Notes under the pieces: model-generated
Database searches by the model: none
Seen by the model: the letters and a program-made list of their open reading frames with translations, nothing else
Told to the model about the DNA's origin: nothing
Part shown: one piece after another, positions 22,102 through 23,046 of the stretch
Numbering within the stretch: the stretch's first letter is position 1
How the letters are laid out: each line of letters begins with the position of its first letter
Program-made: the position numbers and the translations under genes
Virus record (IMG/VR): IMGVR_UViG_3300027833_000138
Location: 1-33,319 of that record
DNA: 33,319 bases
From: a virus
Strand: one strand, 5' to 3'

Positions 22102-22206
22102 GTTTACCGCTGTACCTTGAGGTGTGAGTATGCTATAGGATACCTATGTCCTACTACTATGCGAAAAAACAGGTAAAATTAATTTCACTTATTTTTGATT
22201 TAGGGC

Positions 22207-22234
22207 TTGACACCGGGATTCAAGTCTATACAAT
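22207..22234 (+). promoter_or_regulatory. Rightward early promoter
   Basis: TTGACA (22207-22212), a 16-base spacer and TACAAT (22229-22234) form a good sigma70-type promoter with a start near 22241. It is the only convincing rightward promoter before the early genes. Confidence 0.7.
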
Positions 22235-22240
22235 GGGGGC

Positions 22241-22602
22241 CATCAAGACGAGACAGAGCAGCGTTTCTGAGAATGGTAGAGATGTACAGCGGGATCAATA
22301 TCTAGTGTTAGTAAAGTCCACGGGCTTTGATTAATTTAACACCGAGCTTATATCGCAGTCTTGACCTGAGTGTTACTGCTAGTAGATAACGGTAACGACC
22401 CTAAGAAGCCGTGGCTTGCAAGGTTGTGAACGCAGAGTGTATCAGGATCGACTAACCAATCTAATCAGGTTAGACAGAGGCCAGAAGGCACCGTGTAAGC
22501 GGGTTGCGTGGTTAAAACAGCCTCTATAAGATTAGCGCGGTTATTCACTTAAGACCTTTGATTATCAGGGGTTTTGATTGAATAACTTAAAAGGTTTTTA
22601 AA
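22241..22602 (+). ncRNA. Long structured leader or small RNA before the early genes
   Basis: About 360 bases follow the predicted promoter without a convincing reading frame, while the rest of the arm is tightly packed. Local pairings by eye include AAAGTC/GGCTTT (22313-22328), CTAACC/GGTTAG (22452-22473) and AGAGGC/GCCTCT (22476-22526). An 8-bp GTTATTCA/TGAATAAC stem lies next to the first ribosome site. I do not recognise an Rfam family, and no tRNA is evident. It may be a cis-regulatory leader or a separate RNA. Confidence 0.5.
22540..22595 (+). promoter_or_regulatory. Possible pseudoknot covering the first early ribosome-binding site
   Basis: Stem 1 is GTTATTCA (22540-22547) with TGAATAAC (22579-22586), 8 perfect pairs. 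ACCTTT in its loop (22554-22559) can pair with AAAGGT (22590-22595) downstream, the geometry of an H-type pseudoknot. AAGG in the second arm is the Shine-Dalgarno for the ATG at 22603, so folding would block translation. Confidence 0.55.
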
Positions 22603-23046
22603 ATGTCACATAAACAGAAACGAACATATGCCGAGCTACATAAAATCGCTGATGCATTCAACAGAGACAATGGTTATTGTGGTTTGATAGCTGTTTGCAT
22701 AGCGACCAACGCGAGCATGGGCAAAGTTAAGAGATATATGGAAACAATGGTAAACAGTGGACGGAGACGAGAACACGGCAAAGGAACTCCGCTGGATGTT
22801 ATCGAGAAAACTACCATGCGTTTTGGTAAAAAATATGATATAGATTTTATGGATGGCGGTTACATAGGCCAGACGTTAAATAGAGTCCATAGGGATTTAA
22901 AGAACACCTTTCCGAACGACACGTTTTATTGTCTAGTCAATGGCCATATCGCTTGCATTCGAGAGGGTATTTTAGAAGATTGGACAGCAATGAAACCGAG
23001 CAGACGCAAGGTCTTGAAAGTCTGGAAAATAGAAGAGAGAGTATAA
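22603..23046 (+). CDS. Early protein, papain-like cysteine-peptidase fold candidate
   Basis: A 147-residue protein, the first rightward gene and so likely expressed at once on infection. The N-terminal motif NGYCGLIAVCIATN puts a Cys at residue 26 at the start of a helix, as the nucleophile of papain-like folds. NGHIACIREGILEDW near the C-terminus gives His115 and Asp126 in the order and spacing of a Cys-His-Asp triad. I recall phage proteins of the same build without a named function. It might process or inactivate a host protein, or be an inactive relative. This is inferred from motif geometry only. Translation may be controlled by the pseudoknot over its AAGG site. Confidence 0.62.
   Translation: MSHKQKRTYAELHKIADAFNRDNGYCGLIAVCIATNASMGKVKRYMETMVNSGRRREHGKGTPLDVIEKTTMRFGKKYDIDFMDGGYIGQTLNRVHRDLKNTFPNDTFYCLVNGHIACIREGILEDWTAMKPSRRKVLKVWKIEERV

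Follow-up and report, generated by a model that had tools for sequence, protein, structure and literature searches.

A modular, folded RNA leader precedes the first early gene of uncultured phages

The leader of gene 1, the first early gene in a 33,319-nt stretch of viral DNA (positions 1 to 33,319 of IMG/VR record IMGVR_UViG_3300027833_000138, referred to as the window), is, as judged from comparison with related sequences, a previously uncatalogued folded RNA of uncultured phages. It lies between an early promoter and gene 1, is approximately 340-360 nt long, and consists of 5', middle and 3' domains followed by a terminal hairpin that adjoins the Shine-Dalgarno (SD) sequence. Its helices carry compensatory changes, and it occupies a constant place before one gene family on the mRNA strand, as structured cis-acting leaders do. 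All of its close relatives are metagenomic contigs (IMG/VR), and the phages that carry it are apparently marine. We put the chance at slightly better than even that this leader would act in cis as a modular regulatory RNA and control the translation of gene 1. The features of the window that enter this argument are as follows.

22207-22234, + strand: sigma-70-like early promoter, TTGACA-16-TACAAT (11/12 consensus)
22241-22602, + strand: leader RNA, ~360 nt in the window (start at ~22241 placed from the promoter)
22244-22363, + strand: 5' domain, type B (covariation; homology to type A by model)
22244-22249/22358-22363, + strand: P1 of the 5' domain
22250-22254/22263-22267, + strand: small hairpin of the 5' domain (both-sided changes)
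22281-22290/22346-22354, + strand: P2 of the 5' domain (both-sided changes)
22291-22304, + strand: conserved internal loop of the 5' domain, GGGATCAATATCTA
22305-22310/22337-22342, + strand: P3 of the 5' domain (both-sided changes)
22313-22319/22322-22328, + strand: P3a of the 5' domain (both-sided changes)
22365-22446, + strand: middle domain, type B (both-sided changes in 2 of 4 helices)
22365-22369/22442-22446, + strand: closing helix of the middle domain, CCTGA/TCAGG (conservation, no both-sided change)
22372-22375/22393-22396, + strand: helix of the middle domain, GTTA/TAAC (conservation, no both-sided change)
22376-22379/22432-22435, + strand: helix of the middle domain, CTGC/GCAG (both-sided changes)
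22406-22409/22414-22417, + strand: helix of the middle domain, AAGC/GCTT (both-sided changes)
22452-22535, + strand: 3' domain (covariation; stem module from the MFE fold)
22452-22457/22468-22473, + strand: hairpin of the 3' domain, CTAACC/GGTTAG
22461-22466/22530-22535, + strand: pseudoknot of the 3' domain, loop CTAATC with GATTAG (covariation)
22476-22481/22520-22525, + strand: exchangeable stem module enclosed by the pseudoknot, AGAGGC/GCCTCT (MFE fold)
22540-22586, + strand: terminal hairpin adjoining the SD (basal arms are the stem of a preliminary description; apical helix uses ACCTTT)
22590-22594, + strand: SD region, AAAGG core, 4 nt past the hairpin (1-7 nt in 32 relatives)
22603-23046, + strand: gene 1, 147 aa, phrog_3754, predicted papain-like/C39-like cysteine peptidase fold

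The conservation of the terminal hairpin is far beyond chance. Residues 22540-22586 form a single 47-nt hairpin of 22 pairs (arms 22540-22561 and 22565-22586), in which the 5' arm contains the conserved stem sequence GGTTATTC; the predicted energy of the whole hairpin is -23.1 kcal/mol, as compared to -4.4 kcal/mol for the basal stem by itself. Across 32 aligned sequences, 89.1% of cells are paired and both-sided changes, which here and below are tallied per sequence and not per independent event, occur at 15 of the 22 pairs. The covariation score of 0.478 was reached in 0/500 shuffles, a type of test that related sequences can inflate, and compares with values of at most 0.10 for slid partners, which address kinship in part; the structure models scored here and below were partly drawn from the same sequences. 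Spacing is also kept: in 32/32 sequences, 1-7 nt separate the end of the hairpin from the SD and 13-21 nt separate it from the start codon. Ensemble prediction leaves the first half of the SD open (0.76-0.87) but its second half mostly paired (about 0.2), and on these values simple masking of the SD by the terminal hairpin is unsupported. A lone hairpin at positions 870-947 of contig L030 also gave a weak match to the hairpin model (E=0.0045), but it precedes another early gene and the 5' domain model had no match there, and we set it aside as chance or convergence.

A preliminary description of the window had proposed that an H-type pseudoknot gates translation at this site, with the loop of an 8-bp stem pairing to the SD. 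The stem is present, as GTTATTCA (22540-22547) is perfectly complementary to TGAATAAC (22579-22586), and the hexamers lie where they had been placed: ACCTTT at 22554-22559 and AAAGGT at 22590-22595, the latter covering the SD of the ATG at 22603, with a 6-bp complementarity that is perfect in the window. However, among the relatives compared, ACCTTT/AAAGGT pairing is confined to the window and one near-identical contig. In the closest distinct relative (L003/L085, 90% protein identity) the change T22557C disrupts this pairing, whereas in the hairpin the same change converts U-G to C-G and so strengthens the alternative pair; in the other types the hexamer pairing is not kept. Because of this, and because 59% of cells are paired in the proposed second helix versus 99% in the basal stem, the H-type pseudoknot is unsupported; for the hexamer arms, this is an outcome that the preliminary description itself had named as refuting. 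Its complementarity is also not above chance. A scan for the proposed geometry (8-bp stem with a loop 6-mer complementary to a 6-mer just downstream) found a single instance on the window's + strand, and whole-window dinucleotide shuffles contained a mean of 1.65 cases, with 46/60 shuffles at or above the observed count; genome-wide the geometry is unexceptional, and local shuffles, a post hoc test, reproduced it in 29/5000. In the predicted fold ACCTTT is paired inside the apical helix of the long hairpin, with no free loop, and pseudoknot formation would sacrifice this helix at a cost of ~19 kcal/mol. We consider the likelihood that this pairing gates gene 1 translation to be close to negligible. 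What the preliminary description anticipated correctly is that the RBS of this gene is overlaid by a conserved RNA structure, in which the basal arms are kept within the long hairpin although the hexamer arms are not, and the existence of a pseudoknot in the leader, which is formed by 22461-22466 with 22530-22535, 5' of the terminal hairpin, and not by the hexamers it named.

The precedent invoked for that proposal was T4 gene 32. In the gene 32 operator of T4/RB69, a ~28-nt pseudoknot is followed by more than 40 nt of less structured RNA, and the ssDNA-binding protein that the gene encodes binds to it (PMC535899). The leader resembles this operator in that a pseudoknot precedes the RBS in a phage mRNA, but it spans ~340 nt in three domains, places a hairpin at the SD and serves a gene whose predicted product is a peptidase. 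Nothing was found to tie the leader to an ssDNA-binding protein; gene 1 looks like a papain-like cysteine peptidase.

The pseudoknot of the 3' domain shows both-sided changes at 7 of 8 pairs in 27 sequences, and together with its hairpin it scores 0.434, a value reached in 0/500 shuffles and compared with at most 0.104 when both helices are slid. The MAFFT alignment shifts the pseudoknot arm of the window by one column, and the window and L085 are thus counted partly against the pseudoknot in these figures; aligned by hand, their arms are perfect over 6 bp. The enclosed stem module occurs in about five types among the relatives, and types 4 and 5 retain an equivalent pairing between the loop and downstream residues. 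The window and L003 differ at 4/153 positions of the 3' domain and at 12/47 fourfold-degenerate sites of gene 1; on this comparison, the 3' domain is more constrained than the silent sites of gene 1.

Further upstream, the whole type B structure has 98.9% of cells paired in ten sequences, with both-sided changes at 15 pairs. The type A 5' and middle domains, represented by 25 sequences, have 96.9% of cells paired and both-sided changes at 26 of 37 pairs, and score 0.469 (slid, at most 0.104). Since the type A 5' domain model (R2) matches the type B domain of the window at 22272-22361 (E=2.2e-4) and also recognizes type C in L079/L081, the 5' domains of the three types are probably homologous. 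In L095 (2561-2862), the type B small hairpin carries a ~90-nt insertion. At paired positions, G-U outnumbers A-C by 85 to 7, 37 to 8 and 34 to 1, and because G-U is far commoner, the RNA of the + (mRNA) strand is the form under selection.

An equivalent of the early promoter is present at the matching place in most relatives. A second candidate promoter near 22540 (TATAAG at ~22524) was rejected, as relatives that carry this element do not retain it and it is missing from the promoter scan. No terminator-like sites were found in the leader or between it and 24500, and the type A alignment, inspected by eye, contains no conserved start codon or frame for a leader peptide. Rfam 15 covariance models gave only chance microRNA matches to the window and to the type A leader of L092, and neither the terminal hairpin model nor the 5' domain model detected a second leader copy on the + strand of the window. 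Among cultured phages, nucleotide comparison with the leader matched only a promoter-like stretch, which occurs in some Pseudomonas phages (best E=0.03), two exact leader motifs were not found in the bacterial genomes searched, and the leader has so far been found only in phages. A search of mostly open-access literature yielded no description of this RNA.

Several other sequence features surround the early promoter. The motif TATGCTATAGGATACC lies upstream of it (~22130-22145 in the window) in many relatives, both with and without gene 1. In L088, L093, L095, L116, L126, L128 and L028, the TTGACA -35 region is replaced by a segment containing two direct repeats of TGTCGCAA spaced ~22 bp apart (TTGTCGCAACCAGATATATCTATGTCGCAAATAGATAAGC), which looks like a putative activator or repressor operator; a motif related to these repeats, in reverse complement, is present in L020, L030 and L044. 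On the - strand, a consensus-perfect promoter (TTGACA-17-TATAAT with TG before the -10; window 21820-21792) points to the late genes and is positioned back to back with the early promoter.

Scans for the 5' domain motif, which were run without use of gene 1, located it at 84 loci, 83 of which have at least 450 nt of downstream sequence (about 45 distinct contigs), and gene 1 follows in 83/83. Members of the primase-found group that lack gene 1 (L017, L020, L024, L028, L044, L056, L071, L072 and L078) have a comparable early promoter region and another first gene, which is preceded by a plain leader of roughly 40 nt (e.g. CCATCAAGACAACAAACACACAGAGG); the 5' domain model had no match in these phages. 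L028 and L088 share their sequence up to and including CATCAAGACGACACA and diverge thereafter, in what looks like gain or loss of the leader together with gene 1. Within the leader, 5' types A, B and C are joined with 3' types 1-5 in many combinations. The 3' type mostly tracks the gene 1 clade, exceptions being L141 and L157, in which a type 3 leader end accompanies another protein clade.

Gene 1 has relatives in IMG/VR contigs and likely encodes a cysteine peptidase, as predicted from its modeled structure. The AlphaFold model (pLDDT 86) superimposes on the Josephin, ComA and PCAT1 C39 peptidase domains with Z 8.6 over 110-113 residues (rmsd 3.2-3.5), where Z values of 7 to 8 are common for models without a clear match, and Foldseek returned weak matches (best E 0.02); because of both, our confidence in the predicted papain-like/C39 fold is only moderate. 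Residues Cys26, His115 and Asp126 are invariant in 16 gene 1 homologs. PHROGs and Pfam provided no metabolic assignment, and no recognized RNA-binding domain was found in the protein. Possibly, the product is an early host-directed protease.

Cis control of gene 1 translation is the best supported explanation of the leader, because the RNA keeps a constant place next to the RBS and was found only with gene 1. The upstream domains would act as sensing or protein-binding parts, while the terminal hairpin, which lies within the ribosome-binding footprint, would be the expression platform that sets the efficiency of gene 1 initiation. The signal could be a phage protein, a host factor, a small molecule or the gene 1 product itself, and control could run in either direction. 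An arm-exchange switch is possible in such a leader. An 8-nt complementarity links the 5' arm of the pseudoknot hairpin (22450-22457, GA[G/A/C]TAACC) with that of the terminal hairpin, GGTTATTC, and folding of the pseudoknot domain and this alternative pairing would therefore be mutually exclusive; the RNA could alternate between a folded pseudoknot domain and a state in which the base of the terminal hairpin is opened. Across 27 sequences 99.1% of cells in the alternative pairing are paired, and GA 22450-22451 is invariant though unpaired in its own hairpin. In the window 1 of the 8 pairs fails, the pairing shows no covariation within types 1-3, and the complementarity may stem merely from the GGTTAT that both hairpins share. 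The leader is like orphan riboswitch candidates and other structured leaders in that covarying domains precede one gene family and the element at the SD comes last, but it is unlike them in that different 5'/middle domains are found joined to different 3' domains and in its restriction, so far, to phages. Against cis control, ~340 nt is long for the translational control of one gene, and constant linkage is also expected for a trans-acting RNA that works with the gene 1 protein.

This last explanation, in which the leader would be a stable RNA, or be cleaved to yield one, and would either act in trans or assemble with the gene 1 protein into an RNP, RNA and gene traveling as one module, is the strongest of the alternatives, although we regard it as unlikely. 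It would account for the linkage at all 83 testable loci, for the joint absence of leader and gene 1 elsewhere, and for the large and highly conserved 5' and middle domains that start close to the promoter. However, the 3' domain and the hairpin after it hold a constant position right at the SD, as cis action predicts, gene 1 lacks a recognized RNA-binding domain, and a distant homolog in Pakpunavirus JG004 follows closely on other genes within an operon and has no adjacent leader of this kind. GOLLD and ROOL have been reported from phages, and the leader shares with GOLLD, ROOL and OLE the property of being a large structured RNA, but it has no Rfam match and is an mRNA leader of fixed position.

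It is improbable that RNase III cleaves the terminal hairpin as a processing site and so frees the gene 1 mRNA from the leader. In T7 early mRNA, RNase III sites are imperfect hairpins located just upstream of early gene RBSs, and the terminal hairpin, a ~20-bp imperfect hairpin 1-7 nt before the SD, resembles known processing sites of phage early transcripts in its geometry. A generic site should need little conservation of stem sequence, whereas the GGTTATTC stem is conserved beyond this expected need, and processing would leave the additional domains upstream unexplained. More doubtful still is a processive antiterminator that modifies RNA polymerase for the early operon, like the put RNA of HK022, which acts on RNA polymerase and consists of two stem-loops in about 70 nt (PMC9378689). 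The leader resembles put in being structured and in lying close to where a phage early transcript begins, with a conserved promoter-proximal 5' domain ahead of a ~10-kb operon. Unlike put, it is tied to one gene and not to the operon, being missing from relatives that have a comparable early operon and promoter but lack gene 1; its three domains and ~340 nt depart from the put architecture, and no terminator-like site was found from the leader to 24500. A self-cleaving or splicing ribozyme, which a compact, pseudoknotted, multi-domain phage RNA might bring to mind, is very unlikely, as no Rfam ribozyme or intron family matched even at E=10 and no conserved scissile motif was identified.

The leader represents a strongly covarying RNA family of ~340 nt, not previously catalogued, in uncultured phages. 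As phage genomes are short of space, spending a third of a kilobase on RNA ahead of a single early gene would imply that the step it controls is important. Judging by their mosaic of domains, these leaders seem to evolve by module exchange, and the structure model predicts arm pairings that are mutually exclusive. Tentatively, they may form a new class of large modular phage RNA, in which 5'/middle and 3' domains are swapped between phages like protein domains, and which either senses the state of infection to switch on a host-directed protease or makes up an RNA-protein module with it.
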